Positions 5,179-39,496 of a DNA stretch of 53,342 nucleotides are shown in pieces; position 1 is the stretch's first letter; each line of letters starts with the position of its first letter. Source of the stretch: Pseudomonadota bacterium. Its GTDB lineage: Bacteria; Desulfobacterota; Desulfovibrionia; Desulfovibrionales; Desulfovibrionaceae. The notes beneath the pieces were generated by a model. That model worked only from the letters and a program-made list of their open reading frames with translations. It ran no database searches and was not told the DNA's origin. The stretch covers positions 1 to 53,342 of the forward strand of contig JAHIUW010000019.1 of NCBI GenBank assembly GCA_018816865.1, written 5' to 3'. The position numbers and the translations under genes are program-made.

Positions 5179-5220
5179 AGAAAAGTTTTTGAATTGTTGT
5201 CCCTCGCGCACACAACGCAA

Positions 5221-5255
5221 AGCCGGGCATTCCATGCGGAACGCCCGGCTTTTTT
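5221..5255 (+). terminator. Rho-independent terminator of lutABC
   Basis: AGCCGGGC pairs with GCCCGGCT, extended by TTCC/GGAA past one mismatch, with an ATGC loop, followed by six Ts. It lies between the convergent ends of lutC and the autotransporter gene. Confidence 0.85.
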
Positions 5256-5272
5256 GTCGGATTTAGCCCGGC

Positions 5273-23765: not shown

Positions 23766-24742
23766 GGATCGTCTTCATGGGGACGCCGGAATTCGCCCGG
23801 ATCTCCCTTGAGCATCTTCACGCCTGGGACGGAGCCCACGTCATAGCCGTCTACACCCAGCCCGACCGGCCCTGCGGTCGTGGTCGCAAGTGCAAACCGT
23901 CCGAGGTCAAGTCCTTTGCCCTGGAGCTGGGCATTCCCGTGCTCCAACCCGAGAACTTCAAAAGCGACGAGGCCGTGGCCGAACTCACGGCCCTGGCCCC
24001 GGACCTCCTGGTGGTGGCCGCTTACGGCCTGATCCTGCCCCAACGAGTGCTGGACATCCCGGCTCTGGGGGCCATCAACGTCCATGGCTCGCTGCTGCCC
24101 AAATACCGTGGGGCCGCGCCCATCCAGCGCGCCATCATGAACGATGAACCCGCCACGGGCATCACCATCATGCAGATGAATGCGGGCATGGACACCGGCG
24201 ACATCCTCTTCGCCCGCTCGCTGTACATCGGCAGGGACGACACCGCCGAGACCCTGCACGACGAATTGGCCCAGTTGGGCGGCAGACTGCTGGTGGAGGC
24301 CCTGGAGCGCCTGGGTCAGAACAGGCTGCTGCGCATCCCCCAGGACGACTCCAAGGCCACCTACGCCGCCAAGCTGGAAAAGCACGAGGGCGAAATCCAC
24401 TGGGACCAGCCGGCCCAGGACGTGCACAACCGCGCGCGGGCCATGCACCCCTGGCCCGGTGCCTATTTCACTTGGCCGGGAAACGAGCGCACGGGCAAGA
24501 AGCAACAGCGCCTGTCCCTGACCCCGGGGCGCGTGGGTTATGCACTGCCCGAACCCAAGCCCGCGCCAGGGACCATCCTGGGCCTGTGCGAGGGCCTGTT
24601 GGCCATCGCCTGCACGGACAAGACCTATCTGGTGCCCTCCCTGAAGCCCGCGGGCAAGAATCTGCTCACGGCCGAGGCCTTTGCCTGCGGCTACCTGGAC
24701 AGCTGCCCCAACGTCGTCTGCCCCCCGGAGCAAGACGCCTAG
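23729..24742 (+). CDS. fmt: Methionyl-tRNA formyltransferase
   Basis: A 337-aa Fmt that formylates initiator Met-tRNA. The N-terminal formyltransferase domain starts with LRIVFMGTPEFA (12-23) and carries catalytic Asn117 and His119 (NVHGSLLP) plus Asp155 (GMDTGD). The C-terminal OB-like domain follows from about 220. The annotated start at 23729 lies inside def and gives an 11-residue extension before the family N-terminus; no better ATG exists between it and the conserved block. Def and Fmt act on opposite ends of the same cycle. Confidence 0.95.
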   Translation: MDAPAGQGGGKLRIVFMGTPEFARISLEHLHAWDGAHVIAVYTQPDRPCGRGRKCKPSEVKSFALELGIPVLQPENFKSDEAVAELTALAPDLLVVAAYGLILPQRVLDIPALGAINVHGSLLPKYRGAAPIQRAIMNDEPATGITIMQMNAGMDTGDILFARSLYIGRDDTAETLHDELAQLGGRLLVEALERLGQNRLLRIPQDDSKATYAAKLEKHEGEIHWDQPAQDVHNRARAMHPWPGAYFTWPGNERTGKKQQRLSLTPGRVGYALPEPKPAPGTILGLCEGLLAIACTDKTYLVPSLKPAGKNLLTAEAFACGYLDSCPNVVCPPEQDA

Positions 24743-24761
24743 CCCAACCCGGCAACGCGCA

Positions 24762-24790
24762 TTGACTTTTTGCACCTCGACTGCTCAAAT
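24762..24790 (+). promoter_or_regulatory. Possible promoter for the DUF116-rsmB pair
   Basis: TTGACT (5/6) at 24762-24767, a 17-bp spacer and TCAAAT (4/6) at 24785-24790, placed 85 bp before the DUF116 start. It implies that DUF116 and rsmB can be transcribed apart from def-fmt. Confidence 0.45.
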
Positions 24791-24874
24791 CCACAAGTAT
24801 CGCCGGGGTGACTGGTTGAGACCCCAGGACGCTTGTATTTCTTTTCGTATTACAAACCGGATTCGACACCGCCA

Positions 24875-25729
24875 ATGACCACCAAGGAGCCACGGGTCGA
24901 GGACTTCGACCTCCTCGACCGGACCGCAGGGAGCGCCCGCAAGCGCCTGTTCATCGGACTCATCATCGGGGCCTCGGCCCTGGTCTGCAGTCTGTTGTTG
25001 CTGTTGTGGGTCATTCCCTACATCGGGCTGACCTCCATCCATCCCAGCGCCCCGTGGATCCTGGGCATCGTGCTGGCCGCCCTGGTCGGTCTGGTAGGCT
25101 GGGCCGCCCTGGGTCTGGTGCTGAACATCCTGCTGGGCCGCAGCCTGCCGCTGACGCGCCGCCTACGCGGACTGACCATCAAGCTGTTCCTGCCGCTGAT
25201 GGTCCTGCTGGGCAAGGTCCTGGGCATCAGCAAACAGCGGGTGCGCTCGTCGTTCATCAAGGTCAACAACGAACTGGTGCTTTCCGAGGCCGGACGCTAC
25301 CAGCCCGAGGACATCCTGCTGCTGATGCCGCACTGTCTGCAGAACAGCCGTTGCGAGATGCGCCTGACCTACGACATCAACAACTGCAAACGCTGCGGCA
25401 AGTGCCCCCTCAAGGAACTGCTGGAGATCTCCGAACGCTACGGAGTGCATCTGGCCATCGCCACCGGCGGCACCATCGCCCGGCGCATCGTGGTCCAGAC
25501 CAGACCCCGGTTGATCATCGCCGTGGCCTGCGAACGCGACCTGTCCAGCGGCATTCAGGACACCTTTCCCCTGCCCGTGTTCGGGGTCATGAACCTGCGC
25601 CCGCATGGCCCCTGCCTGGACACCGGCGTGCCGATGCACGAACTGGAGCAGGCCCTGCAACGTTTTCTCCTTGACCCGCCCGCGCCCAGGGTCCTGCCCA
25701 TGGCCGCCAACCCCGTTCCCAACCCCTAG
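24875..25729 (+). CDS. DUF116 family membrane protein with cysteine-rich C-terminal domain
   Basis: About 284 aa. Two or three membrane helices (about 25-50, 62-88 and possibly 104-120) are followed by a cytoplasmic domain rich in conserved cysteines: MPHCLQNSRCEMR, NNCKRCGKCPL (a CxxCGxC cluster), VACERD and HGPCLDTG. This pattern is the DUF116 family. The spacing of the cysteines suggests a metal or iron-sulfur centre; no function is established to my knowledge. ATG 24875 is preferred; a TTG at 24833 would add 14 residues. It sits between fmt and rsmB, eight bases before the latter, so a role linked to translation or RNA modification is conceivable but unproven. Confidence 0.75.
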   Translation: MTTKEPRVEDFDLLDRTAGSARKRLFIGLIIGASALVCSLLLLLWVIPYIGLTSIHPSAPWILGIVLAALVGLVGWAALGLVLNILLGRSLPLTRRLRGLTIKLFLPLMVLLGKVLGISKQRVRSSFIKVNNELVLSEAGRYQPEDILLLMPHCLQNSRCEMRLTYDINNCKRCGKCPLKELLEISERYGVHLAIATGGTIARRIVVQTRPRLIIAVACERDLSSGIQDTFPLPVFGVMNLRPHGPCLDTGVPMHELEQALQRFLLDPPAPRVLPMAANPVPNP

Positions 25730-25737
25730 GACCAGCC

Positions 25738-27060
25738 ATGCCCCGCCGCCCCAAGAAACACAGCGCCCTGCCCCCGGCCAGGCGTGCCGCCTTGTACGCC
25801 CTGACGTCCTGTCTGGCAGGCGCGGACATCCAGGCGGCCCTGGACACTGCCCTCGGCCCCAAACAGGGACTGGAACCCCTGTCAGGACGCGACACGGCCC
25901 TGGCCACGGAACTGGCCTATGGCACCCTGCGCCTCAAGCTTCGCCTGGACTGGCTGCTTGGACGGTTCCTGAAACGGCCCGAGGACCTGCCCATCCCCAT
26001 GCGCATGTCCCTGGCCCTGGCCGCCTACGAGATCATCCAGTTGGACAAGGTCCCGTCCTATGCCTCTGTGGACTGGTGCGTGGAGCACGTCAAAACGACT
26101 ATCAACCCAGGACTGGCAAAGGTTGCCAACGCCGTGCTGCGCAAGCTGACCGACCTGGGCGAGGCCACCGCGGACCCCGAGTTCTACCGCCGCGAGACCC
26201 CGGATGAACGAGCCTTTCTGACGACTTTTTATGCGGCCCCACGCTGGCTCACGGACCTCTGGTGCGAGAGCTACGGCCTGCAGCGGGCCGAACACTATCT
26301 GGCCGCCAGCGCCCAGGCCGCCCCCCTGGGGCTGCGTCTGCGCGCCGATGCACCCAAGGCCCAAGGACTGCTGGAGCAGTGGACGGCCTCCGGGAACTGC
26401 CTGGCCTCCGGAGCCGATGGCGTGGCCCTGACCCGGCCCCCTGAAGACCTGCACGAATTGCTCGACGCCGGGGCCGTGTTACGCCAGAGCATGGCCGGGC
26501 AAGAGGCCCTGCATGCCCTGGGCTGCAGCGGATGGCCGCGCCCCCTGTGGGACGCCTGTTGCGGACGCGGAGGCAAGACCCTGCTGCTGGCCGACGCCGG
26601 GGGCGGCCCCATCCTGGCCTCGGACACCAGCCTGGGTCGCCTGCGTGGACTGAAGCACGAGCTTGAGCGCCTGACCATTTCCGGAGTCGTCGCCGCCCGA
26701 GCCCGGGCCGACCGGCCTGCCCCGCTCAAGGGCTGTGTTCCGGCCATCCTGGTGGACGCGCCCTGTTCCGGTCTGGGGGTGCTCTCGCGCCGTCCCGATA
26801 CCAAAATCAAACGCCGACCCGAGGACCTTATCAAGCTGGCCGCGCTGCAGGACAACATCCTGGACCACGCGGCCCTGGCCCTGGCTCCCGGAGGTCTGCT
26901 GGCCTACGTGACCTGCACCTTGAACCCGGCGGAGAATGAGCAGCGCGTCGAACGATTCCTGAACCACCACAAGGGCTTCTCATTGGACATCCAGTGGCAG
27001 ACCCCTTCCGACTCGCCCCTGAACGAGTTCTTCTATGCCGCCCTCCTGAAGCGCTCCTGA
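25738..27060 (+). CDS. rsmB: 16S rRNA (cytosine-C5) methyltransferase, RsmB-like
   Basis: A 440-aa protein with an N-terminal NusB-like RNA-binding domain (about 12-145) and a C-terminal Nol1/Nop2/Sun methyltransferase. The SAM loop DACCGRGGKT is at 272-281. The two catalytic cysteine motifs are DAPCSG with Cys343 and VTCTLNP with Cys393. The family methylates C967 of E. coli 16S rRNA. It begins eight bases after the DUF116 gene and is probably co-transcribed with it. Confidence 0.92.
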   Translation: MPRRPKKHSALPPARRAALYALTSCLAGADIQAALDTALGPKQGLEPLSGRDTALATELAYGTLRLKLRLDWLLGRFLKRPEDLPIPMRMSLALAAYEIIQLDKVPSYASVDWCVEHVKTTINPGLAKVANAVLRKLTDLGEATADPEFYRRETPDERAFLTTFYAAPRWLTDLWCESYGLQRAEHYLAASAQAAPLGLRLRADAPKAQGLLEQWTASGNCLASGADGVALTRPPEDLHELLDAGAVLRQSMAGQEALHALGCSGWPRPLWDACCGRGGKTLLLADAGGGPILASDTSLGRLRGLKHELERLTISGVVAARARADRPAPLKGCVPAILVDAPCSGLGVLSRRPDTKIKRRPEDLIKLAALQDNILDHAALALAPGGLLAYVTCTLNPAENEQRVERFLNHHKGFSLDIQWQTPSDSPLNEFFYAALLKRS

Positions 27061-27347
27061 CAACGCCTCCTCACGGTGTGTTCCCCCACCGAGAGTCCTC
27101 ACGGAGCGTCCCAGCGAAGTCTCCAGAAACGTCCCCTAACGGCCCTGGCGGTGTCCGGTACGAACCCTGTTGGCGTCCTTGGAAGACCCTGAGCCACCTC
27201 CAGTAAAATCGGTTATCAGCCCTTGCCCTGTCTGCCTTTCCACGGTCCCTCAACACCGTGGGCCAGCCCCGCAGCTTGTTCACAAGCCCTTGTTGAGGCA
27301 TGGTTGTGACCAAGGCAACGGGCATCCGCCCTCTAACGAGGTGAACC

Positions 27348-29087
27348 ATGAGCACGACTCAGGCATTGAAGACACGCATCGACATGGCCATGGGCCGCGA
27401 ACCCGTGGACCTGCTGGTGACCAACGTCAAGGTGCTGGACGTCTTCAGCGGCACGATCTTCGAATCCCCGGTGGCCATCGGGCAGGGCGAATTCATCGGC
27501 TTCGGCGAGTACGAGGCCCGCGAGGTCCTGGACGCCGGGGGCCGGACCATGCTCCCGGGACTGATCGACGCCCATGTGCACCTTGAGTCCTCCATGGTCT
27601 CGCCACGGCAGTTCGCGGCCTGCGTCCTGCCCCGGGGCACCACCACGGTCATCGCCGATCCCCACGAAATCGCCAACGTCCTGGGGGCGGACGGCATCCG
27701 CTACATGCTTGAGGCCACACGCGCCCTACCCCTGGACGTGCGCATCATGCTGCCCTCGTGTGTGCCCGCCACGCCTTTCGAGAACGCCGGAGCCGTGCTG
27801 AATGCCGCGGATCTTGCCCCGCTGCTGGGCCTGCACGGCGTGCTGGGCCTGGGTGAGGTCATGAACTATCCCGGTGTGATCCATGCCGATCCCCAGGTAC
27901 TGGACAAGCTGCTCCTGGCCCACCAGGCCGGACGCATGGTCGACGGGCACAGCCCCGGGGTCTCTGGGCGCGAACTTACGGCCTACGCCGCCGCAGGCAT
28001 CCGCAGCGACCACGAGTGCAGCACCCCCGAGGAACTGGCCGAGCGCGTGCGCCTGGGCCTCTACGTGCTGCTGCGCGAGGGCTCGGCGGCCCGCAACCTC
28101 ACGACCCTGCTCACGGGTGTGACCCCGGAAAACGCCCGGCGCTGCCTGCTGTGCACCGACGACCGCGAACCCGCGGACCTGCTGGCGCGCGGGCACATCG
28201 ACCACAGCCTGCGCCTGGCCGTGCGCTCGGGTCTGGACCCCGTAACTGCCGTGCGCATGGCTACCCTGAACACGGCGGAATGTTACGGCCTGGCTCACAA
28301 GGGGGCCATTGCCCCGGCCTACCAAGCAGATTTCGTTCTGATGGACGATCTGTATGACTTTGTGCCTCAGCAGGTTTATGTGGCCGGTCAGCTGGTGGCG
28401 GCTCAGGGCCGCATGATCGCTGACCTGCCAGACGCCAGCATCCAGGCTGTCAGCTCCACCGTGCATCTGGCCCCGCTGGGTCCGGATTCCCTGGAACTGC
28501 GCCTGGACCGTCCCCGGGCCAACGTCATCGGACTGATCCCGGACAGCCTCGTGACCCGGGCCCTGCTGCGCGACGTGATCCTGGACGGCAACGGGCGCTT
28601 TCTGCCGCACAACAATCCAGGCCTCTCCAAGCTGGCGGTCATTGAACGCCACAAGGCCACGGGCAACGTGGGCCTGGGCATCATCGAGGGCTACGGGGTG
28701 CGAGGCGGGGCCATCGCCACCACCATCGCCCACGACTCGCACAATATCGTGGTCGCGGGCGACAACGACGCGGACATGCTGACAGCCGTGGCGGACATCC
28801 AGGCCATGGGCGGCGGAGTGACCCTCTGCCGGGCCGGCGAGATCATCGCCCGCCTGCCCCTGCCCATCGCGGGTCTGATGTCCGATCGCCCGGCTTGCGA
28901 GGTGGCCGCACAACTGGGGCTAATGCTCCAGGCGGCCCACGAGCAACTGGGAGTGGAAAGCGCCATCCAGCCCTTCATGACCCTGAGCTTCCTCTCCCTG
29001 CCCGTGATCCCGGAACTCAAACTTACGGACACGGGCCTGTTCGACGTGCGCAGCTTCAGGCACATCGGAGTTTGCGCCACATCCTGA
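27348..29087 (+). CDS. ade: Adenine deaminase
   Basis: A 579-aa amidohydrolase that converts adenine to hypoxanthine and ammonia in purine salvage. The metal site HVHLESSM starts at His76/His78, followed by ADPHEIANVLG, and the C-terminal domain has the HDSHN motif of adenine deaminases. GAGGTGA lies just before the start codon. The 287-bp upstream gap holds no riboswitch I could recognise. A strong hairpin terminator follows 70 bp downstream. No other purine gene is adjacent. Confidence 0.95.
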   Translation: MSTTQALKTRIDMAMGREPVDLLVTNVKVLDVFSGTIFESPVAIGQGEFIGFGEYEAREVLDAGGRTMLPGLIDAHVHLESSMVSPRQFAACVLPRGTTTVIADPHEIANVLGADGIRYMLEATRALPLDVRIMLPSCVPATPFENAGAVLNAADLAPLLGLHGVLGLGEVMNYPGVIHADPQVLDKLLLAHQAGRMVDGHSPGVSGRELTAYAAAGIRSDHECSTPEELAERVRLGLYVLLREGSAARNLTTLLTGVTPENARRCLLCTDDREPADLLARGHIDHSLRLAVRSGLDPVTAVRMATLNTAECYGLAHKGAIAPAYQADFVLMDDLYDFVPQQVYVAGQLVAAQGRMIADLPDASIQAVSSTVHLAPLGPDSLELRLDRPRANVIGLIPDSLVTRALLRDVILDGNGRFLPHNNPGLSKLAVIERHKATGNVGLGIIEGYGVRGGAIATTIAHDSHNIVVAGDNDADMLTAVADIQAMGGGVTLCRAGEIIARLPLPIAGLMSDRPACEVAAQLGLMLQAAHEQLGVESAIQPFMTLSFLSLPVIPELKLTDTGLFDVRSFRHIGVCATS

Positions 29088-29160
29088 ACAACCTGGCCTA
29101 GATGCTGGCGCCGCTGTTCCTCGCCCGTTTTGCCATCCTCAAGACCGACATCGATAACGC

Positions 29161-29208
29161 ACAAGAAGACCCTCCCGTCGTATGACGGGGGGATCTTCTT
29201 GTTGTTTG
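29161..29208 (+). terminator. Terminator after adenine deaminase
   Basis: A stem of about 19 pairs, 29161-29179 with 29184-29202, GTAT loop and one C/A mismatch, followed by TGTTTG. It insulates luxP from the ade transcript. Confidence 0.75.
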
Positions 29209-29294
29209 TGGACCATCATCGTCCAGGTCAGCTGGATTGACCTTTCCTCTGACTGCTCAGCCCGGGAATCATTCTCCGGCTTGATGATCAAAAT

Positions 29295-29324
29295 TTGTAA
29301 AATCACTTTCACTTATGCTATTAT
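29295..29324 (+). promoter_or_regulatory. Extended -10 promoter of the luxPQ-like operon
   Basis: TTGTAA at 29295-29300, an 18-bp spacer and TATTAT at 29319-29324 (5/6), with TGC directly before it, giving the TGn extended -10 element. It lies 64 bp before the luxP-like start, in an AT-rich patch after the ade terminator. Confidence 0.6.
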
Positions 29325-29387
29325 GAAACAGTCAATGAGAAGACCTCCCTATGAATTGGTTCGTGTGACGCGGAGGAGGGCAAGGCT

Positions 29388-30503
29388 ATGAAACAACTAT
29401 TCGTCATCATCTTCGCACTGACCCTTGCCTGCTCGGGACTGTATACGAGTTCGGGCCTGGCTCAGGAGCCAACGTCTCCCTACCTGACCGTGGAAGAATT
29501 CCTGAACCTGCACCCTGAACAGGTGCAGACCATGAACGAATTTGAACGGATCGTGGACGCACCGGGCACGGCACTCCGTCCCGGTCAGCAGGCCAAGCCC
29601 GTGAAGATTGCCTTTGTCTATCCCGGACTCCAGCCCTCTGATTATTGGCAGCGCAGCCTGAGTTCCTTCCGAAGTCGAATGGATGAGATCGGCGTCAACT
29701 ATCAACTCAGCGAATACTTCTCCAAACCCGTGGTGGATACAAGGCTCCAGCAGGAACAACTCAAGGATGCCCTGGCTGAAGACCCCGACTACCTCGTCTT
29801 CACGCTGGACGCGATGCAGCACAGGCACCTGCTCAGCCGCCTGATCACCAAGGGCCGCCCCAAGATCATCCTCCAGAACATCACAACCCCGCTCAGAATG
29901 TGGGAAGGCAAGCAACCCTTCCTCTACGTGGGGTTCGACCATACCATTGGTACCCGAATCCTGGCCGATTATTTCCTGTCCAAGTCCCGGGGAGGTCAGT
30001 ACGGGCTGCTGTTCTTCGGCCCGGGTTACGTCAGCGACATGCGGGGCAAGACCTTTCAACGCTTCATGAGTGAGGCTGAAGGCCCGTCTTTGGCCGCTTC
30101 CTACTACACCGACGGCGATCAGGAAAAAGCCCGCAAGGCGGCCAGAGAAATCCTGGACAACTACGACGTCGAATTCATCTATGCCTGCTCCACCTCCGTC
30201 GCACTGGGAACCATTGACGCCCTGCGCGAAACAGGCAATGTCGGCAACGTCATGATCAACGGCTGGGGTGGTGGCAGCGCTGAATTGCAGTCCATCCTGG
30301 CCGGAGAGATGAACGTCACCGTAATGCGCATGAACGACGACAACGGTGTGGCCATGGCCGAGGCCATTCGCCTGGACATCGAACACAGTGCGAGCCATGT
30401 TCCCACGGTCTATTCAGGCGATTTCGCTTTGGTGCAACAGGGCATCTCACCCCAGAAGATCGAACAGCTCAAGGCTCGGGCTTTCCGTTACTCGGACAAG
30501 TAA
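29388..30503 (+). CDS. luxP: LuxP-like periplasmic autoinducer-2 binding protein
   Basis: A 371-aa periplasmic-binding-fold protein with a signal peptide (cleavage near LA-QEP, residue 25/26). It matches Vibrio LuxP over its full length, down to the last residues (RAFRYSDK). Residues that contact AI-2 in V. harveyi LuxP have visible counterparts: Gln82, Ser84 and Trp87 (LQPSDYW), Asn164 (ILQNITTP), Arg219 (SDMRG), Ser268/Thr269 (ACSTS), Trp293 (INGWGGGSAEL) and Arg314 (VMRMNDD). It should bind the borated furanosyl diester form of AI-2. GGAGGAGGG precedes the start. Four bases separate it from the LuxQ-like kinase, the same order as Vibrio luxPQ. Confidence 0.9.
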   Translation: MKQLFVIIFALTLACSGLYTSSGLAQEPTSPYLTVEEFLNLHPEQVQTMNEFERIVDAPGTALRPGQQAKPVKIAFVYPGLQPSDYWQRSLSSFRSRMDEIGVNYQLSEYFSKPVVDTRLQQEQLKDALAEDPDYLVFTLDAMQHRHLLSRLITKGRPKIILQNITTPLRMWEGKQPFLYVGFDHTIGTRILADYFLSKSRGGQYGLLFFGPGYVSDMRGKTFQRFMSEAEGPSLAASYYTDGDQEKARKAAREILDNYDVEFIYACSTSVALGTIDALRETGNVGNVMINGWGGGSAELQSILAGEMNVTVMRMNDDNGVAMAEAIRLDIEHSASHVPTVYSGDFALVQQGISPQKIEQLKARAFRYSDK

Positions 30504-30507
30504 ACGC

Positions 30508-32727
30508 ATGACCGCATCCAGACAGCAGAAACTCTCTTCCCTTCTCGGATTCTATCTTGCCGGGACATTTGTCTTTTTTTCTGTGATTCTGCTACTTTGG
30601 ACGTACAATACCGCGAGCAGTACCGTAGACGCCCAACTTACAATCGATTTTGATCAACGCTTTAACATCGCTCGCAGCGTCCTTACGCACAGGCTTGAGC
30701 TGATCAGTATCAACATCAACCACATCGCGACATCGGAAAGGGTCCTTTCCCAAGTCGAGGCAGGGCACAAGACTGCAACGGAAGTGGAACTCGGCAAGGT
30801 CGTCTGGGGCCAGGACGACTCCACCCTCGACATCCTGTTCATAGTCGCGGCAGGCAGCAACAAGGTCTGGGCCGATGCCAGCGCCCCTTTCCTGGATGTC
30901 TCCGCCTTTCTGCCCCTCATTGCCAAGAGCGATCAGAATCTCGGTCCTTCAGGGGCGGTCCTGCGCCTCCAGGCCGATGACCATTCGCTGACCATGCTGC
31001 TCCAGTCCGCACCTGTCATCCGACAGGATACGGGTCGCATCTTCGGAACGCTGTACGGTGGAATCGTTCTCAACGACAATTTCCCCTTCGCTGAAGGCAT
31101 CCGCAAGAGCACGGAATCACGCGAAGTCGTCCTGATCCAGGACGGCCGGATTCTGGCTTCCACAAGCCTTCAAGACAGTGCTACAAGCAAGCATATCCGC
31201 GAACTCGGGACACAGGTCATGCAGAAGAGCTTCGTTCGCCTGCCCAACGAACTCATCGCAGCCTTCCGACCCCTCGACCTGCCGTCGTTCCCGGTTCCTC
31301 TGGTCTGCGGTATCGCCATCACCGACCACTCACCCTCGATCCTCAAGACCGCGTATCTGCATAAGGGCGCCTTTGCCGCCACCCTCTCCCTTGCCTTTTT
31401 CGTGGGCACGATTGTGCTCATCCACAGGGTCACACGGCCATCGCTCAACAGGCTTCTGGACTACACGCACCAAGTGCGTTCCGGCGACCCAGAAGCCCAT
31501 TTCGAGGTCGTTCGGATCAAAGAACTGAACACCATCGGCGAGGCCATGGAGGAAATGGTCGCAAGGATCCAAGGCTCCCAGAAGTATGTGGAAAGCATTG
31601 TGGATTCCATGCCCTCCGTGCTCATCGGCGTGGACCGGTACGGCCTTGTAACCATCTGGAACGACAAGGCGGTCGAGGCCTCCGGAAAGACCGCAGACCA
31701 AGTCAGGGGGCTGCCTTTGGACCAGGCCTTCCCGGAGCTTGGTGGCGACATGGAAATGATCCTGGCATCCATCAAGGCTGGTCAGATACGCGAAGTCCAC
31801 AAGCGCTCCCGCAACAGGGGTGGAACCATCATCTACGAGGATGTTGTGGTCTATCCCCTGGCCGTAGGCTACAACGGCGGTTCCGCTGGAGCTGTGGTGC
31901 GAGTGGACAACGTATCGGAGCGGGTGCGGATCGAGGAGGTTATCGTCCAGACGGAGAAGATGATCTCGCTTGGTGGCCTTGCGGCGGGCATGGCCCATGA
32001 GATCAACAATCCCTTGGGTGGCATCCTGCAGGGCGCCCAAAATATCGAGCGACGCCTCTCACCCGATCTTGCGGCCAACGCCACGGCCGCCGAGGCCCGG
32101 CAGACCACCTTGGATGCAGTGCGTGGTTACGCCCAGGACAGGGGAATCTTCAGGATGCTTCAGGGCATCAGGGATTCGGGCGAACGTGCTGCCAAGATCG
32201 TGTGCCACATGCTGGATTTCAGCCGCAGCGGCGAATCGCACCGCAAGACGTGCGATCTCAATGCCCTGGCGAACCGGGCCCTGGAATTGGCCTCCAGTGA
32301 CTACAATCGGGAAACAGAGCACGACTTCCGCCGCATCGGCATCCTGAGAGATTACCACCCTGGGCCACTCAGCGTGTGCTGCACGGAAATGGAAATCGAA
32401 CAGGTCGTCCTGAACCTACTTCTCAATGCAGCGTACGCCATGTCCGAACCGGGCCGGCCCGACGAACCGCCACGCATCACCTTGCGTACCCGATTGGAAC
32501 CGGGTTTCGTCATGCTTGAGGTTGAGGACAATGGTCCGGGCCTGAGTGAAGACATTATAAAGCGTGTTTTCGAGCCTTTCTTCACCACAAAGCCCCCGGG
32601 ACTTGGGACGGGGCTGGGACTTTCGGTTTCCTATTTCATCATCACCCAGAATCACGGCGGCGAATTCGGGGTCGAATCAGACCCCGGCCATGGGGCAAGG
32701 TTCATCATCAAGCTCCCGGTGGCCTGA
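30508..32727 (+). CDS. LuxQ-like sensor histidine kinase (LuxQ periplasmic domain, HAMP, PAS, HisKA)
   Basis: A 739-aa inner-membrane kinase. TM1 is near 13-33, the periplasmic domain 34-286, TM2 about 287-305, HAMP about 306-357, PAS about 362-470. HisKA has phospho-acceptor His497 (MAHEINNPLGG), and the ATPase domain shows NLLLNAAYAM, DNGPGL (674-679) and GTGLGLS. The periplasmic part resembles LuxQ, notably PVI-TGRIFGTLYGGIVLNDNF (169-192) and the VVL-ILAS strands that follow. Unlike Vibrio LuxQ there is no C-terminal receiver, and the kinase core is NtrB-like with an extra loop between the DHp helices. ATG 30508 directly follows luxP; open frame upstream overlaps luxP and is rejected. No response regulator is adjacent. 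Confidence 0.85.
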   Translation: MTASRQQKLSSLLGFYLAGTFVFFSVILLLWTYNTASSTVDAQLTIDFDQRFNIARSVLTHRLELISININHIATSERVLSQVEAGHKTATEVELGKVVWGQDDSTLDILFIVAAGSNKVWADASAPFLDVSAFLPLIAKSDQNLGPSGAVLRLQADDHSLTMLLQSAPVIRQDTGRIFGTLYGGIVLNDNFPFAEGIRKSTESREVVLIQDGRILASTSLQDSATSKHIRELGTQVMQKSFVRLPNELIAAFRPLDLPSFPVPLVCGIAITDHSPSILKTAYLHKGAFAATLSLAFFVGTIVLIHRVTRPSLNRLLDYTHQVRSGDPEAHFEVVRIKELNTIGEAMEEMVARIQGSQKYVESIVDSMPSVLIGVDRYGLVTIWNDKAVEASGKTADQVRGLPLDQAFPELGGDMEMILASIKAGQIREVHKRSRNRGGTIIYEDVVVYPLAVGYNGGSAGAVVRVDNVSERVRIEEVIVQTEKMISLGGLAAGMAHEINNPLGGILQGAQNIERRLSPDLAANATAAEARQTTLDAVRGYAQDRGIFRMLQGIRDSGERAAKIVCHMLDFSRSGESHRKTCDLNALANRALELASSDYNRETEHDFRRIGILRDYHPGPLSVCCTEMEIEQVVLNLLLNAAYAMSEPGRPDEPPRITLRTRLEPGFVMLEVEDNGPGLSEDIIKRVFEPFFTTKPPGLGTGLGLSVSYFIITQNHGGEFGVESDPGHGARFIIKLPVA

Positions 32728-33205
32728 AACCGCATACCTGTCGTGACTTTTTGACACCCTGCATGGTTCAGACAACCTTCTCTCATCTCCACTTCCAAAT
32801 TGGTTATCAAGCCGTGTGGTGTCTAGCTTTTCACCTTTGGTCAGCGCAGGCCTCTGGCCGGAACCCCTTGTTTCTCAATCCACGGGAGGACCTGCTCCGC
32901 CACAAGGACCGGGACTTGCTGCACCCGGAGTCATCCGCATTGCGTGCACGCCCACAGCGATAGTCCCCTGGCCCTGGTGTGACAGCGCTGCAGCCCACGA
33001 TCGCCCTTTCGGGACCGGCTCACGGCGGCCCAGAGTCCAGCCTCGGGCGCAAGGCTTGAACCCCAAGTCCTCTCCCGACGGCTTTCTCACGCCCTGCCCC
33101 TTTACATCGCTTGATATCTCGTGATTTATAGTAAAGATTCGCAAACCAATGAGGTTCTGCGTAACGCCCATCGGCCCGCAGGGGCAACACACCGAGGATC
33201 ACCTT
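32728..33205. other. 478-bp intergenic region upstream of pqi genes
   Basis: No gene or clear terminator is seen. The last 100 bases become AT-rich and contain TTTACA (33101) and TTATAG (33126), a poorly spaced promoter candidate for the pqi operon. An in-frame ATG at 33149 could extend the first pqi gene. Confidence 0.35.
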
Positions 33206-33808
33206 GTGAAGAGCAAATTCATCGCCTGCCACGAATGCGACCTGCTGCACCACGTCCGGGTCATTCCCGACGGTGGCTCGGCCCGCTGCATACGTTGCGC
33301 TGCCCTGCTCTACAGACGCAAGGACAACAGCATCGATCAGGTTCTGGCCCTGACCATTACCGGGCTGATCCTCTTCGCCCTGGCCAATGCCTTCCCCATG
33401 CTCACCATGCGCCTGGACGCCAATTTTCAGGAGACCACGCTGCTCACGGGAGTGTTTCAACTCTGGAAACAGGGCCTGCCGGGGCTGGCAGTGCTGGTGC
33501 TCCTGACCAGCGTGCTCCTTCCGCTGCTCAAGCTCCTGCTCCTGGCCTACATCCTGCTGCCCCTACGCCTGGGCATGGTGCCACCAGCCACAGGCCCTGT
33601 CTTCCGACTGGTGCTGGCACTGCAACCCTGGGCCATGATGGAGGTCTTTCTGCTGGGAGTGCTGGTGGCCATGGTCAAACTTTCCTCCACGGCCGAAATC
33701 ATCGTCGGCCTGGCCATGTACGCCTTCGGCTTTTTGATCCTGGTGTTGGCCGGGATCACCGCATCCCTGGACCCGAACACGGTCTGGGAACGCCTGGAGG
33801 TCCGCTGA
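33206..33808 (+). CDS. pqiA: PqiA-like membrane protein, first half
   Basis: A 200-aa paraquat-inducible protein A family member. A zinc-ribbon-like start has Cys8/Cys11 (ACHEC) and Cys28/Cys31 (CIRC), followed by four membrane helices. GTG 33206 with GAGG upstream fits the family N-terminus; ATG 33149 is an alternative. E. coli PqiA has two such halves in one polypeptide of about 417 residues; here they are two genes. The pqi system is thought to move lipids between inner and outer membrane together with PqiB and PqiC. Stop and next start overlap (TGATG). Confidence 0.87.
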   Translation: MKSKFIACHECDLLHHVRVIPDGGSARCIRCAALLYRRKDNSIDQVLALTITGLILFALANAFPMLTMRLDANFQETTLLTGVFQLWKQGLPGLAVLVLLTSVLLPLLKLLLLAYILLPLRLGMVPPATGPVFRLVLALQPWAMMEVFLLGVLVAMVKLSSTAEIIVGLAMYAFGFLILVLAGITASLDPNTVWERLEVR

Positions 33809-34434
33809 TGGAGATGCAGCTGCCCATCGCCTCCCTGGCCGGACTGACCAGTTGCCACAGTTGCCAGCTGCTGCTGCACAGGCCCCCTGACGGTGCAGCC
33901 CATGCCGAATGCCCCCGTTGCGGCGCAACGCTGCACATGCGCAAGCCCCGCAGCCTGGCCCGCACCTGGGCCTTCCTGGTCGCCTCCGTGATCTTCTATT
34001 TCCCGGCCATGGCGCTGCCCATCATGACCACCACGACCTTTCAGGGTACCCGACACGACACCATCCTCTCGGGCATCTACTATCTGCTGACCACGGGCAT
34101 GTGGCCCCTGGCCGCCATCGTCTTCTTTGCCAGCGTCGTGGTACCGATCCTGAAGATCATCATCCTCATCATGCTGGTATTCACCGTCCAGCGGGGGTCC
34201 GACTGGCGCAGGCGCGACAGAACCCGCCTCTACCGCCTGACCGAAGCCGTGGGCCGCTGGTCCATGGTCGATATCTATGTCGTAACCATCCTGGTGGCCC
34301 TGGTGCGCCTCCAGGGCTTAGCCTTCATTGAGGCCGAACCGGGTGCCGTGTTCTTCGCCTGTGTCGTTGTGCTGACCATGTTCGCGGCCAAGAGCTTCGA
34401 CCCCCGGCTGATATGGGACAAACAGGAGCGTTAA
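33808..34434 (+). CDS. pqiA: PqiA-like membrane protein, second half
   Basis: A 208-aa second PqiA-type unit with its own ribbon (Cys16/Cys19 in CHSC, Cys35/Cys38 in CPRC) and four membrane helices, including the family segment AMALPIMTTTTF. It starts one base inside the preceding stop and ends six bases before pqiB, so the two halves and pqiB are one transcript. Sequence similarity between the two halves is limited to the cysteine pattern and helix layout, as in the two domains of full-length PqiA. Confidence 0.87.
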   Translation: MEMQLPIASLAGLTSCHSCQLLLHRPPDGAAHAECPRCGATLHMRKPRSLARTWAFLVASVIFYFPAMALPIMTTTTFQGTRHDTILSGIYYLLTTGMWPLAAIVFFASVVVPILKIIILIMLVFTVQRGSDWRRRDRTRLYRLTEAVGRWSMVDIYVVTILVALVRLQGLAFIEAEPGAVFFACVVVLTMFAAKSFDPRLIWDKQER

Positions 34435-34440
34435 AAGACC

Positions 34441-36054
34441 ATGAGCGAGACCTCGCAAAAAATGAATGCCGACGCCTTCGCGGACCTGCCCGAACCGGCC
34501 ATCCGCAAACGCAAACGATTTTCCATCGTCTGGATCATCCCCCTGGTGGCCGCCATTGCGGCGTCCTGGATGGCCTACAAAACGTTCGAAACACAAGGCC
34601 CGCTGGTCACCATCTGCATGGAAACAGCCGAGGGCCTCGTTCCGGGCAAGACGAAAATCAAATTCAAGGACGTCGATGTCGGGCAGGTGGAAACCATCGA
34701 ATTCAGCAAGGATCTGCAGCACGTGGAAGTCACGGCACGCATGATCAAGGGCATGGAGCGCTACCTGCGTTCTGAGACGCTGTTTTGGGTGGTCCGGGCG
34801 CGGGTCACGCCCAGCGCGATCACGGGACTATCCACCCTGTTCTCGGGGGCCTACATCAGCGTCCTGCCCACCAAGGAGGGCAAGCTGATGTCGGAGTTCA
34901 CGGCCCTCACAGAGCCGCCGGTGATCACCGATGAAAGCCAGGGGCGCTACTTCCTGCTGCGCACCAACAACTTGGGCTCCCTGGACGTGGGCCTTCCGGT
35001 CTATTTCCACAAGGTCAAAGTCGGCCAGGTCGTGAGCTTTCATCTCGGGGAGGACGACAAGGTCGAGGTCAAGGTCTTTGTCCAGGCACCGTTCCACGAA
35101 CGGGTACACCTCAACACCCGGTTCTGGAACGCCTCAGGCCTGGATGTGACTCTGGACGCCCAGGGTGTGCGCGTACAGACCGAATCCATCATCACCATTC
35201 TCCTTGGGGGCATCGCCTTCGACACCCTGGACACCGGCGAACCCATGGAGCAGGCAGCCTCCAATGCCGTCTTCGCCCTCTACCCTTCCAAGGCACAGAG
35301 CTTCGAGGCCTCCTACGACTACCGCGAACGCTACCTGCTGCATTTCAACGAATCCGTGCGCGGACTATATGTCGGCGCGCCCGTCGAATTCCGCGGCATG
35401 AGCATCGGTCGCGTCGTGGACATCAAGCTGCAGATGAACCCCAAGAAGAAGACCGCCAGCATCCCAGTGATCGTCGAAATCGAGCCCGAACGCTTTGAAA
35501 TTCTGGGTAAAAATGGCGATCGCGAGAAGGTCGTCAGTTGCCTGGTGGCCATGGGTATGCGCGCCCAGCTCAAGAACGGCAACCTGATCACGGGCAAAAC
35601 ATTCGTCGACCTCAACCTGTACCCCTCCATACCCGGAACCTCGTTGACCATGGGCGGCAAATACCCCGAACTGCCTTCGGTCCCCTCGCCTCTGGAAGGC
35701 CTGTTGGCCAGCACCCAGCGCATCATGAACAAGTTGGAGCAGCTGCCCATGGGTGCCCTGACCACTGAACTGCGCACGACCCTGACCGACATCCGGGGCA
35801 CCTTGGGGCAGATGCGTGGGCTGATGGGCCGCGTGGACGAACTGGAGCTGCTGCCCAAGGCCGGACAGGCGCTGGAGCAGGCCACCAGCGCGCTCAAGGA
35901 GGTCGAACTGACCATGGCCCCTGACTCTCCGGTCAAGAACGACCTCGCGAAACTGCTCCAGGATGTCAGCGACACAGCCCGGTCCCTGCGCAATCTGGCT
36001 GACTATCTCGAACGACAACCCGACGCTCTGATTTTCGGCAAGGAGAAACAATAA
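34441..36054 (+). CDS. pqiB: PqiB-like MCE-domain protein
   Basis: A 537-aa protein with one N-terminal membrane anchor (about 24-44) and three MCE/MlaD repeats (near 50-140, 160-270 and 290-400), then a long helical C-terminal region (about 420-530) like the needle of PqiB. In E. coli PqiB forms a hexameric tube across the periplasm for lipid movement. Conserved GxxVxFxGxxIGxV-type cores recur (KTKIKFKDVDVGQV, GLPVYFHKVKVGQV, GAPVEFRGMSIGRV). The gene overlaps pqiC by one base. Confidence 0.92.
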   Translation: MSETSQKMNADAFADLPEPAIRKRKRFSIVWIIPLVAAIAASWMAYKTFETQGPLVTICMETAEGLVPGKTKIKFKDVDVGQVETIEFSKDLQHVEVTARMIKGMERYLRSETLFWVVRARVTPSAITGLSTLFSGAYISVLPTKEGKLMSEFTALTEPPVITDESQGRYFLLRTNNLGSLDVGLPVYFHKVKVGQVVSFHLGEDDKVEVKVFVQAPFHERVHLNTRFWNASGLDVTLDAQGVRVQTESIITILLGGIAFDTLDTGEPMEQAASNAVFALYPSKAQSFEASYDYRERYLLHFNESVRGLYVGAPVEFRGMSIGRVVDIKLQMNPKKKTASIPVIVEIEPERFEILGKNGDREKVVSCLVAMGMRAQLKNGNLITGKTFVDLNLYPSIPGTSLTMGGKYPELPSVPSPLEGLLASTQRIMNKLEQLPMGALTTELRTTLTDIRGTLGQMRGLMGRVDELELLPKAGQALEQATSALKEVELTMAPDSPVKNDLAKLLQDVSDTARSLRNLADYLERQPDALIFGKEKQ

Positions 36055-36665
36055 TGCGCCCAAACACCCTGCCAACCCTGGTGCTGTTGCTGGCCCTGAC
36101 GACTCTCTGCTCCTGCCGCAGCTCTGTGCCCCCCGTGGCCTTCTACACGCTCTCTCCCGTGTCCGCCGTGAGTCCGGAGCAGACGGCCCAGGCCGACGTT
36201 CTGGCCGTGGGTGTCGGCCCCCTGACCATCCCGCGCATGATTGACCGCCCGACGATCGTCACGCGCTCCGCTCAAGGCGAACTGCATATCGACGAGTTCC
36301 ACCGCTGGGCCGGGACCCTGGAGAGCACCGTGCTCGACTCGCTGACCCAAAACATCGCCCAACAGCTCGGCTCGGAGCAGGTGGTGGCCTATCCCTGGAC
36401 CAATTTCATCGACCCCGACTACCGCGTGCCCATCGATATCCTGCGCCTGGACGGCGAATTGGGCGGGCTCGTGACCCTGGAGGCCACCTGGGGCGTGACC
36501 CCAGGCAAGGAGCGCCGCGCAGCTGTGGTGCGCATGACGACCCTTTGCGAGCAAACCACTGGGGGGAGCTACGCGGACCTCGTCGCAGCCCACGACCGTG
36601 CCCTGGAAACACTGGCACAGATGATCGCCACTGAAATCGAAACCTTACACGCCGCAGACCAGTAA
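36054..36665 (+). CDS. pqiC: PqiC-like ABC-type transport auxiliary lipoprotein
   Basis: A 203-aa lipoprotein. A hydrophobic signal (8-18) ends in LCSC with Cys21, followed by FYTLSPV, the signature opening of the PqiC/DUF330 family. The IPRMIDRP motif near 61-68 is also typical. PqiC is an outer-membrane lipoprotein that docks the PqiB tube. The start overlaps the pqiB stop by one base, and the operon ends at the 36754 terminator. Confidence 0.9.
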   Translation: MRPNTLPTLVLLLALTTLCSCRSSVPPVAFYTLSPVSAVSPEQTAQADVLAVGVGPLTIPRMIDRPTIVTRSAQGELHIDEFHRWAGTLESTVLDSLTQNIAQQLGSEQVVAYPWTNFIDPDYRVPIDILRLDGELGGLVTLEATWGVTPGKERRAAVVRMTTLCEQTTGGSYADLVAAHDRALETLAQMIATEIETLHAADQ

Positions 36666-36753
36666 CCAACGCCGCCAGGCCCGGCCCCTTGAACGTGAGG
36701 ATTGCAGGCGGAGATTACTGGGCGAATGAACCCTGTGAGGCAAGCTCCATACA

Positions 36754-36787
36754 AAAAGCCCTGCCGGAGAACTCCGGCAGGGCTTTT
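36754..36787. terminator. Bidirectional terminator between pqiC and the heptose kinase gene
   Basis: A perfect 16-bp stem, AAAAGCCCTGCCGGAG with its complement, and a two-base loop. As begin one arm and Ts end the other, so it can stop transcription from both sides between convergent genes. Confidence 0.9.
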
Positions 36788-36851
36788 ACACGTCTTCGCT
36801 CCGAGCGGAACAAATGTAGCCTAAAAACTCAAAACAAGGCTCAACAGCAGG

Positions 36852-37886
36852 CTACGCGCCATCCCCAAACCAGGTGCAACGCGGCGGCAGTTCACAGCCA
36901 TCTTCCAACACGAGGCGGATGTCGTCGATGGAAGCCGAGGCCGTGCCCACCTCTCCCACCACGATCCCGGCGGCGAGATTGGCCAATTCACAGGCCGTAA
37001 TCAGGTCCAGGCCCTGGGAGACCGCCAGGCCCATCATGGCGATGACCGTATCCCCGGCCCCTGTGACGTCAAAGACCTTACGCGCTGCCGTGGGGATGTG
37101 CGTGACCTGTTCGGGGCCCTGGAACAGGGCCATGCCCTTGGCTCCCAGGGTGATCAGCAGGTTGGCATTGCCGAGTTTTTCGAAAATCTGAAGCCCGGCG
37201 CGCTGCACCGAATGCCTGTCCGAGGGCACCAGCTCAACCCCGGCCCCTTCCTGGGCCTCCATGGCGTTGGGGGTCAACAGGTCGACACCCTCGTAGAGCT
37301 GAAAATTGCGGGTTTTGGGATCCACGAAGACCGGCGGGCGGTGTTCCATGGCGTTCAGCAAGGACCAGAGACGGTCCATGAAGGGCTGTGTCACCAGGCC
37401 CTTGCCGTAGTCCGAGAGGATGATCACCCCGGCCTCGAGCACCCGGTCGCGCAGATAGTCGAACAGCTGCTCGGTGACGCCCTCGGACAAAAGATGGGTC
37501 TTTTCATAGTCCACCCGCACCACCTGCTGGTTCTGGGCCACGATCCGCGTCTTACGAATCGTAGGACGATCCGAATCACAGACCGCATGGGCCGTGATCC
37601 CGGCTTCGCGCAGCAGGCGCAGCAGGCGTTCCCCGTCGGCGTCCATGCCGCAGACCCCGACGATGGTGGGTTCGCCGCCCAGGGCTTTGATATTGCGGGC
37701 CACGTTGCCGGCGCCACCAAGGATGTAGCGCTCCTCTTCCACATGCACCACGGGCACCGGGGCCTCGGGCGAAATACGCGCCACGCGTCCCACCACGTAA
37801 TGATCCAACACCAGGTCCCCGATGATCAGGACCTTGCCCCCGGCAAGCCCGGGCAATGCCTGGAGCAGTTTTTCTTTTTCAGTCAT
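36852..37886 (-). CDS. rfaE1: D-glycero-beta-D-manno-heptose-7-phosphate kinase (RfaE1/HldE-N)
   Basis: A 344-aa PfkB-family kinase. The opening IIGDLVLDHYVVGRVARISPEAP-like block (21-43), GGAGNVARN (57-65) and the C-terminal DVTGAGDT with catalytic Asp279 match the kinase half of HldE. It phosphorylates heptose-7-phosphate on the way to ADP-heptose for LPS core. The adenylyltransferase half is absent, so it must be encoded elsewhere, as in two-gene systems. It follows parB on the same strand, 28 bp apart. Confidence 0.92.
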   Translation of the reverse strand: MTEKEKLLQALPGLAGGKVLIIGDLVLDHYVVGRVARISPEAPVPVVHVEEERYILGGAGNVARNIKALGGEPTIVGVCGMDADGERLLRLLREAGITAHAVCDSDRPTIRKTRIVAQNQQVVRVDYEKTHLLSEGVTEQLFDYLRDRVLEAGVIILSDYGKGLVTQPFMDRLWSLLNAMEHRPPVFVDPKTRNFQLYEGVDLLTPNAMEAQEGAGVELVPSDRHSVQRAGLQIFEKLGNANLLITLGAKGMALFQGPEQVTHIPTAARKVFDVTGAGDTVIAMMGLAVSQGLDLITACELANLAAGIVVGEVGTASASIDDIRLVLEDGCELPPRCTWFGDGA

Positions 37887-37914
37887 GTATTCTTCCGACT
37901 CGGCTCGAGGGTGA

Positions 37915-38880
37915 CTATTTCAGCATCTCCGCAATCCCCGGGACCATGGGGCCATCCTCTTCGGGCACGGCGGGAATCTCGGGCTCGTAAACGCCAAGCC
38001 TGGTCAGCAGGACGGTCAACTCCTCGGGGCAGCTGTACTTCAACACGATCTGCCCCTTGTCCAGGGAGCCGGAGACCATCGCCTTACTGCCCAAAACATG
38101 GGCGATACGCCGCCCCAATTCCAGGCTCTCGTTGGTCAGGGGCTTGGCCACTGTCTTGCGCGCCACACCCGGCTTGCCGTTGTCCCCGGGCAGCTCCCCG
38201 GTGCGCTTCCAGTAGGCAGCCATGGCCTCGGCCTCGCGCACGGAAAGCCCCTTGTCCAGGATGCGCATCCGGAACTCTTCCTGGGGCTCGGCCTCGCTCA
38301 CCGCCAGCAGCGAGCGGCCATGTCCGGCGCTCATGTTGCCGCGCCTGATGTCCATCTGGATGGCCTCAGGCAGTTGCGTCAAGCGCAGGGTATTGGCGAT
38401 GGCCGAGCGGCTCTTGCCCACCCGTTCCGCCAGATCTTCCTGAGTCAGATCAAACTGCTCCTGGAGGCGTTTGAGGCCCATGGCCTCTTCAATGGGATTC
38501 AGATCCTCGCGCTGCAGGTTCTCGATGAGCGCAATGGCCAGGGTTTCCTTGTCGTCCAACTGGCGCACGATGGCGGGCATCTCGGTCTGCTCCGCGATCT
38601 GCGACGCGCGCCAGCGACGCTCGCCGGCCACCAGCTCGTAGAGAAACTCCTCGCCCTGGATGGGGCGCACAAGAATCGGCTGCAGAATCCCGCTGGTGCG
38701 GATGGAAACCGCCAGTTCATTCAAGGAACCTTCCTCGAAATCCCTGCGCGGCTGGTTGGGATTTGCCCGGATCTTGCCAATGGGCACCAGCACGACCTCG
38801 GGTCCTCCCCCTGAGTCGTCGCCGAAGCCCGATAACAGGGCATCCAGCCCGCGTCCCAATCCCCGCTGTGCAGAAGCCAT
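37915..38880 (-). CDS. parB: Chromosome partitioning protein ParB
   Basis: A 321-aa ParB/Spo0J. The family opening GLGRGLDALL (7-16), the CTP-binding GERRWRAS (86-93), ENLQREDLNPIEEA (120-133) and the helix-turn-helix LTQEDLAERVGKSRSAI (145-161) are all visible; the C-terminal dimer domain fills the last 70 residues. It binds parS and spreads as a CTP-dependent clamp. ATG 38880 has AAGGAG six bases upstream and is preferred over the in-frame start six codons earlier. It is separated from parA by a gene on the other strand. Confidence 0.95.
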   Translation of the reverse strand: MASAQRGLGRGLDALLSGFGDDSGGGPEVVLVPIGKIRANPNQPRRDFEEGSLNELAVSIRTSGILQPILVRPIQGEEFLYELVAGERRWRASQIAEQTEMPAIVRQLDDKETLAIALIENLQREDLNPIEEAMGLKRLQEQFDLTQEDLAERVGKSRSAIANTLRLTQLPEAIQMDIRRGNMSAGHGRSLLAVSEAEPQEEFRMRILDKGLSVREAEAMAAYWKRTGELPGDNGKPGVARKTVAKPLTNESLELGRRIAHVLGSKAMVSGSLDKGQIVLKYSCPEELTVLLTRLGVYEPEIPAVPEEDGPMVPGIAEMLK

Positions 38881-38988
38881 ACGCACTCTCCTTGACAAAA
38901 AGGTTGTTGCGTCTGTTTAATCACCCGCGCATCAACATTCGATGCAGACGCAATCCCATACAAAGAACGCTATCCCATAGGAGGCGAC

Positions 38989-39399
38989 ATGTTCTCTGAA
39001 AAATCCTACCTGACCCTGTTCGATGACAGCGGCGAATCCGCCGGTGTCTGGATCTCTCCCGAACTCTGGGAACAGGCCAAGGACCAGCTCCAACCGATCC
39101 TTGCAGAAATCTGCGGCGAAACCGCCGCCCCGTGGCCGGTGATCCCCGAGCCCATGGAAGACTGGGAGGCACTCAAGCAATACTGGGATCTGCCCTATCC
39201 CCTCAGCCTGGACGTGGACTGCGGCCACTGCGGGGCGCACTCCGACGACTGGCAGGCGGACACCCCCCGCCTGTTCCGCTTGAAAGCCGCCAACTTCGGC
39301 GGGCTGACCACCTTCGAATGCCAGACCTGCCAGGCCCGCATCCTAAAAAAGCACTTCAAGGACGGCCTGCAATGCGAGACCATCCCCTTCAAGGGCTGA
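38989..39399 (+). CDS. Hypothetical zinc-ribbon-like protein between parB and parA
   Basis: A 136-aa soluble protein I do not recognise. Two CxxC knuckles, Cys78/Cys81 (CGHC) and Cys111/Cys114 (CQTC), suggest a treble-clef or zinc-ribbon site in the C-terminal half; the N-terminal half is acidic and Trp-rich. TAGGAGGCGAC precedes the start, an excellent ribosome binding site, so expression is likely. It runs opposite to both par genes, diverging from parB and converging on parA. A role in segregation is only a guess from position. Confidence 0.72.
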   Translation: MFSEKSYLTLFDDSGESAGVWISPELWEQAKDQLQPILAEICGETAAPWPVIPEPMEDWEALKQYWDLPYPLSLDVDCGHCGAHSDDWQADTPRLFRLKAANFGGLTTFECQTCQARILKKHFKDGLQCETIPFKG

Positions 39400-39410
39400 A
39401 CTCGTCCCAC

Positions 39411-39458
39411 GCGGCCACCATGGCCGCTTCGTACGGAGGAGCCCATGGTGGCTCCTCC
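39411..39458. terminator. Two hairpins between convergent genes
   Basis: GCGGCCA/TGGCCGC (39411-39427) and GGAGGAGCC/GGCTCCTCC (39435-39458) follow each other between the zinc-ribbon gene and parA. There is no T-run, so the terminator call is tentative. Confidence 0.45.
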
Positions 39459-39496
39459 CCAGACCCCGCAACTCGCCAGGCGGCGCCCTCCAGGCC

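Follow-up and report, generated by a model that had tools for sequence, protein, structure and literature searches.

The closest described counterpart of the gene pair considered here is the autoinducer-2 (AI-2) receptor LuxP/LuxQ of Vibrio harveyi and V. cholerae. The pair, a luxP-type gene for a periplasmic binding protein followed by a luxQ-type gene for a sensor kinase, lies in a stretch of 53,342 nucleotides (hereafter the window) from a genome of the Desulfovibrionaceae (contig JAHIUW010000019.1; genome G000), which a first, sequence-only reading had described as an AI-2-type receptor pair joined to another circuit. It resembles the Vibrio system in the binding protein and its pocket residues, in the pairing of the genes and in the periplasmic domain of the sensor, and differs from it in having no fused receiver, a kinase half of another family and no luxS in the genome. 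Both genes were confirmed, and the core of that description was supported. Judged from its sequence, the locus encodes a conserved receptor pair of the AI-2 type in which the kinase half has been exchanged; it would work as a LuxPQ input and falls outside the Vibrio family of hybrid LuxQ proteins.

LuxP and LuxQ homologues have been reported from Desulfovibrio before (PMC5187520, PMC2561040, PMC8586430, PMC9659907). One study lists LuxP in D. piezophilus, D. hydrothermalis and D. alaskensis, and LuxQ in D. salexigens and D. hydrothermalis (PMC5187520). It shares with the present case a LuxP in sulfate reducers and a LuxQ-like kinase, there similar over 31% of the query; it infers a Vibrio-like system, lists LuxS for D. 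hydrothermalis and, in the parts available to us, contains no treatment of the kinase architecture. Another describes relatives of LuxP in Marinomonas, Neptuniibacter and Desulfuromonas whose genes adjoin PAS-type regulators, as well as a LuxP without LuxQ in D. desulfuricans (PMC2561040). There too LuxP occurs without luxS in two deltaproteobacteria, partly adjoining a non-Vibrio output; the signal path of D. desulfuricans was judged probably absent, whereas the window has a LuxQ-type head on an intact kinase. A global AI-2 survey of 2025 found LuxP mainly in proteobacteria and described it as a sensor domain only, with AI-2 bound for import (PMC12268683). D. vulgaris, reported to be without luxS, luxP and lsrB, appears to sense the AI-2 of its neighbours, which raises the question of the receptors of sulfate reducers (PMC7845633). 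In the open-licence literature we found no paper on non-hybrid LuxQ-type kinases or on the partner receiver proposed below, and, for LuxQ-type heads joined to GGDEF-EAL, nothing apart from one cyclic di-GMP case given in the available parts of a 2016 census (PMC4822843); a literature search pairing LuxPQ with deltaproteobacteria found no paper. LuxP and LuxQ in sulfate reducers are already in the literature, in which our searches did not find the exchanged kinase half, the proposed partner or the variety of outputs.

A phmmer search of the PDB with the window's LuxP returned four distinct LuxP sequences at E values of 5e-98 to 7e-98, and the next protein at 6e-10. In a tree of 99 rows, the LuxPs were split from E. 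coli RbsB, AlsB and LsrB with a support of 99. Both results place the protein with LuxP, not with binding proteins for ribose, allose or similar sugars, and a ribose-type binding protein was ruled out on these grounds. Within LuxP, the protein stood among those of other sulfate reducers, with a support of just 83–91 beyond its sister in genome G175; a row from Roseicitreum, inside LuxP on a very long branch, was not trusted. The AI-2 contact residues listed in the sequence-only reading were all right by alignment, and T269, the equivalent of Vibrio Thr266, is likewise retained, which brings the pocket to eight out of eight (Q82, S84, W87, N164, R219, W293 and R314 as listed, plus T269). Seven residues are described as hydrogen-bonding AI-2 in structure 1JX6 (Gln77, Ser79, Trp82, Asn159, Arg215, Thr266 and Arg310; PMC9687752), and all seven are conserved in the window's LuxP. 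Phage records contained no LuxP at an E value of 1e-10; plasmid records gave ten matches, six of them from Vibrio.

For the sensor, Pfam gave LuxQ-periplasm with 77.3 bits (cut-off 25.7), and dCache_1 was not listed at E values up to 1. An AlphaFold model of the periplasmic domain (252 residues, 55 sequences, pLDDT 90.5) was searched against the PDB with Foldseek: the top six matches were LuxQ chains, with TM scores of 0.65–0.72 by query length, and the best dCACHE match (TM 0.55) ranked after them. Pfam and the predicted-structure search thus agree on a LuxQ-like domain, as had been proposed, and a generic CACHE domain, which both put behind LuxQ, was ruled out as the head. By the same results, the sensor is not a dCACHE AI-2 receptor of the CahR type. 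The LuxQ-periplasm family itself belongs to the Cache clan (PMC4822843). Among the 19 LuxQ-type proteins found in a survey of 348 genomes of the class, dCache_1 matched 10 (best 1.3e-9) and LuxQ-periplasm all 19.

The cytoplasmic part is of another kind. Response_reg was not listed at E values up to 1 for the window's sensor and was found in none of the 19 LuxQ-type proteins of the class, so the absence of a receiver domain, claimed at the outset, was upheld. The cytoplasmic part had also been described as HAMP, PAS and an NtrB-like kinase: PAS, HisKA and HATPase_c were recovered, together with the sought kinase motifs, HAMP was weak, and "AtoS-like" describes the kinase better than "NtrB-like". 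In NCBIfam, the complete protein matched AtoS best (181.4 bits, below its cut-off of 646); NR(II)/NtrB scored 76.5 bits (cut-off 240), and the LuxQ_Vibrio equivalog 137.5 bits where 1200 are required, so that the protein is not a member of it. By these profiles, the sensor is LuxQ-type in its head only and the rest is not LuxQ.

When residues 478–739 were compared with the rest of the genome, ten other kinases scored at least 274 bits (52–63% identity), followed by a gap down to 117 bits. The N-terminal parts of these paralogs differ, and the stretch before the kinase unit (PAS) is similar in most. The helices flanking the phospho-histidine are near-identical across the eleven family kinases, unlike those of the less similar kinases. 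A search 3.6 kb to each side found no receiver gene for 10 of the 11, the window's included; at L253 the contig stops after 1.15 kb on one side, and at L254 a receiver gene first appears at a distance of 4072 bp. By comparison, four out of five less similar kinases encoded in G000 carry a receiver in their own gene or have one no more than 230 bp away; the fifth has none. Many local paralogous genes are also found in the lineage-specific expansion of two-component genes in D. vulgaris; the available parts of that report make no link to AI-2 or to a shared single-domain receiver (PMC3333781). In one paralog (L252:4604-7480), an ABC_sub_bind domain is fused to the kinase.

Kinase trees placed the window's unit among these local paralogs, and the LuxQ unit of genome G303 as sister to another of them (support 83/98, not starred). 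The LuxQ units of genus g33, Vibrio, Arcobacter and Kiloniella were placed elsewhere. The quick tree had 92 rows and long branches, and was narrowed to 45 rows without L110, L106, L073 and L088; L067 and L133 were omitted from trees and tallies as duplicates of L062 (G303) and L056 (G266). An approximately unbiased test of a single clade for the LuxQ-type heads carried by this kinase family gave p = 0.013 for all eight and p = 0.046 for three of them. Because the groups were named after the tree was seen, this can be taken only as a hint that LuxQ-type heads were transplanted onto the kinase family separately.

The signal had been expected to pass to an unlinked response regulator. A receiver profile search found no response-regulator gene in positions 24001–40000 of the window, and relatives point to a partner elsewhere in the genome. 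In G303, luxP and luxQ are followed by a gene for a 122-residue receiver, and in a Desulfatibacillum metagenome-assembled genome (MAG; L066) by one for a 128-residue receiver. Searched against G000, the G303 receiver matched a protein, P0003, at 6e-24; the next matches came from 3e-13, in frames of at least 400 residues, save for a 152-residue frame on contig C17 (4e-10). P0003 is a standalone single-domain receiver (contig C18:94685-95062, minus strand) with the usual Asp, Thr and Lys, and is 45% and 40% identical to the linked receivers of G303 and L066, respectively. No kinase gene turned up in the surrounding 19 kb of G000 or of G175. The absence of a linked receiver gene was thus confirmed, and the orphan P0003 is a candidate for the unlinked regulator, the pairing being predicted from neighbourhoods in relatives.

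The same kinase type also precedes such receivers where no LuxQ head is present. G089, which gave no match to the LuxQ domain, has a kinase with a unit sharing 59.5% identity with the window's, and directly after it a receiver with 60% identity to P0003; G061 and G319 show the same order, again with no LuxQ head on the kinase. Close kinase/receiver match pairs also occur in G065, G211, G328 and G198, the receiver lying in a longer open frame in three. At the g12 and g23 loci examined, the receiver is followed by a gene combining a receiver domain (REC) and a kinase, with a second REC where the stretch was long enough; the REC-kinase-REC protein after the receiver in G205, searched in G000, gave many similar matches and no clear orthologue. 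Across the class, the kinase family (E 1e-70) was found in 95 of the 98 genomes with the receiver (E 1e-17) versus 17 of the 250 without it, and all 19 LuxQ genomes hold both families; these genome counts are confounded by kinship, which inflates any significance, and, as scoring covered the top 12 candidates for the receiver and the top 7 for the kinase in each genome, per-genome counts are floors. At the G303 locus (L062), positions 446-3274, beside the luxPQ and receiver genes (3609-7346), hold a gene for a phage head-tail connector and another whose T7-type assembly match is weak and under the cut-off; they may be a prophage neighbour or cargo.

The genome of the window, which is 99.97% complete, gave no match for luxS and none for methylthioadenosine/S-adenosylhomocysteine nucleosidase; S-adenosylhomocysteine hydrolase is present. 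We know of no established pathway by which AI-2 would then be produced enzymatically in it. A Vibrio-like self-signalling circuit was ruled out, as there is no luxS in the genome, and with luxS and a nucleosidase match both absent, the bacterium would only listen to AI-2. In the class survey, the LuxQ domain was found in 19 genomes, LuxP (E 1e-30) in 17 and luxS in 13. luxS was present in 10 of the 19 LuxQ genomes versus 3 of the 329 others; all ten belong to genus g33, and both G000 and G175 are without it. Four LuxQ genomes had no LuxP match at this threshold (G259, G262, G263 and G269), and in these there is no LuxP gene at the usual place before luxQ. Two genomes had LuxP and no match to the LuxQ domain (G291 and G293; loci L063 and L064); there, luxP is preceded by what we take, from its sequence, to be a sodium-dependent transporter gene.

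We favour, with modest confidence, an explanation in which AI-2 is relayed by LuxP and a LuxQ-type kinase without fused receiver into a shared hub formed by P0003. In it, other species would release AI-2 or a closely similar furanosyl compound, to which LuxP would bind. The loaded LuxP would dock on the LuxQ-type periplasmic domain, and docking would shift the kinase/phosphatase balance of the PAS-HisKA-ATPase unit. This unit would act as one of the eleven local-family kinases with different sensors, and the family as a whole most likely phosphorylates P0003. AI-2 would then be one of several inputs to the hub.

Several observations weigh against this explanation, some on the side of the ligand and some on the side of the partner. 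As to the ligand, LuxP of the window has Ser270 in place of the neighbouring Vibrio Asp267, a swap shared with G175 and L104; Asp267 is not among the hydrogen-bonding residues named in the available parts of PMC9687752. In addition, a relative of the ATP-binding cassette (ABC) type from Roseicitreum, 33% identical and encoded in an ABC-transporter gene cluster, retains seven of the eight pocket residues, so that the pocket residues are no proof of the ligand. These two points, together with the missing luxS, speak for a nutrient or metabolite sensor whose LuxP binds some other small sugar-like compound. We consider such a sensor distinctly unlikely, given the retention of all seven AI-2 hydrogen-bonding residues, the co-occurrence of luxS and the LuxQ domain in the class (though within one genus), and the report that three LuxP-type sensory domains, randomly picked from 267 and occurring in proteobacteria and deferribacterota, bind AI-2 (PMC12268683).

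As to the partner, one of the ten paralogs (L246) is an exception in having a receiver gene 352 bp downstream. The receiver family is also present in 79 of the 329 class genomes without the LuxQ domain; it is therefore not specific to the LuxQ sensor, and the idea of a receiver specific to LuxPQ was dropped, the family being found in 98 of 348 genomes. The 16 LuxQ-type kinases of genus g33 are 22–24% identical overall to the window's and fall elsewhere in the kinase tree, and because they belong elsewhere, the joint presence of LuxQ and receiver in g33 is uninformative on the pairing. Finally, AtoC, the partner of AtoS, which the window's kinase resembles, is of the NtrC type, and such a regulator, LuxO, stands at the end of the Vibrio relay. 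The pair might thus sense AI-2 and its kinase act on an unlinked NtrC-type (sigma-54) regulator, the small receiver serving other kinases; besides the AtoS match, this is in keeping with a G000 receiver gene that lies some 3.4 kb from P0003 and encodes a sigma-54 activator motif. It nevertheless seems rather unlikely to us, because 10 of the 11 kinases lack a nearby receiver gene (with the limit noted for L253) and the receivers directly after this kinase type in the relatives examined are single-domain.

The features of the locus are listed in Table 1. The listed open reading frame of the kinase gene (30346-32727, 793 aa) overlaps luxP; a plausible start is the ATG at 30508, four bases past the luxP stop. 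A promoter and a terminator upstream of luxP had been put forward as signs of an independent transcription unit. Both signals are present. In the sister genome G175, one pair of the hairpin is altered on both sides, so that pairing is intact, and the promoter-like site is retained only in part, which makes the promoter claim weak.

Table 1. Coordinates of the luxP-luxQ locus and its upstream signals in the window.
Feature	Position	Strand	Remarks
Terminator-like hairpin 5' of luxP	29171..29192	+	0.2 expected, one found; pairing kept in sister genome G175
Promoter-like site TTGTAA-18-TATTAT, TG before second hexamer	29295..29324	+	weak; 0.3 expected, one found
luxP-type periplasmic binding protein	29388..30503	+	371 aa, hydrophobic N-terminus
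luxQ-type sensor kinase	30508..32727	+	739 aa, without receiver domain
LuxQ-periplasm domain, residues 53-263	30664..31296	+	between two hydrophobic stretches
HAMP, residues 304-355	31417..31572	+	Pfam 20.9 bits, below cut-off of 25
PAS, residues 361-446	31588..31845	+	Pfam
HisKA with His497 (31996-31998), family insert between two helices	31972..32232	+	
HATPase_c	32386..32721	+	Pfam

Upstream of luxP lies an adenine deaminase gene, and downstream of luxQ are matches to PqiA, MlaD and ABC_trans_aux (pqi-type genes). In G175, the luxP-luxQ order is kept between the same outer genes, and the inner neighbours differ. The slot upstream of luxP holds adenine deaminase in the window (27348-29087) and Xan_ur_permease in G175 (L045:5524-6855), both purine-related. 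The unrelated genes on both sides, the lack of a linked output gene and the lack of a synthase could be read as marks of decay, the receptor pair being a functionless remnant gained by horizontal transfer. That is very improbable, as both frames are open in the sister genome, with 75% identity for LuxP and 71% for LuxQ, and the kinase motifs are in place.

LuxQ-type heads were also sought beyond the class, by a collection scan with the LuxP alignment (one genome per species, 84,980 species), keeping the best 80 of 296 relatives. A head was called by profile in 75 of these 80 loci; the five without it were L083, L103, L124, L129 and L134, and at L083 its lack possibly reflects an opposite frame chosen by the open reading frame picker. 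Without 20 from Vibrio and two duplicates, 53 LuxQ-type proteins beside luxP were scanned. All 53 had LuxQ-periplasm, 25 HisKA, 25 HATPase_c, 23 GGDEF, 23 EAL, seven Response_reg and one SpoIIE, and these counts are floors, some proteins being shortened by contig ends or broken frames. By profile, the seven receivers are all on kinases (L068, L069, L073, L075, L106, L117 and L142). No fused receiver was found in 18 of the 25 non-Vibrio HisKA proteins, some of which may be shortened, so the architecture of the window's kinase is not unique. At the Vibrio loci, the receiver was fused in the same frame in 19 of 20, the frame being split in one.

Other outputs beside the kinase were, at L076, a receiver combined with an HD domain and, at L104, one combined with a HisKA_2-ATPase part. 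At L065 (9236-12405), the head is joined to a SpoIIE phosphatase. Next come a gene for a DUF6272 protein and a small one that matched nothing in Pfam and reads as STAS-like; a partner-switching output is possible. GGDEF-EAL proteins with the head directly follow luxP at L080, L077, L094, L116, L131 and others, mostly in Stappiaceae and Oceanospirillaceae, and AI-2 control of cyclic di-GMP through them is possible. The NspS/MbaA system of V. cholerae differs from the window's pair in sensing polyamines and in its GGDEF-EAL output. It is alike in that a binding protein controls a membrane signalling protein (PMC8079147), and offers an analogue for the LuxQ-type GGDEF-EAL proteins. The gene after luxPQ in a Desulfobacterium MAG is of the nucleosidase type (PNP_UDP_1; L075:11910-12740); in Marinomonas, a pfs gene has been described after the regulator beside the LuxP relative (PMC2561040).

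LuxP and the LuxQ-type head may constitute a portable AI-2-type input cassette mounted, in different lineages, on outputs as unrelated as hybrid kinases, plain kinases accompanied by a small receiver, GGDEF-EAL proteins and a SpoIIE phosphatase; here it would feed an orphan receiver shared with ten other kinases. We advance this broader proposal tentatively, and regard it as plausible yet somewhat doubtful. If it is true, the bacterium, which has no apparent AI-2 synthesis genes of its own, would balance AI-2 from neighbours against numerous other signals. If AI-2 does bind, many non-Vibrio bacteria, some of them without luxS, would have a defined AI-2-type receptor, and in the present case one named candidate receiver to go with it.

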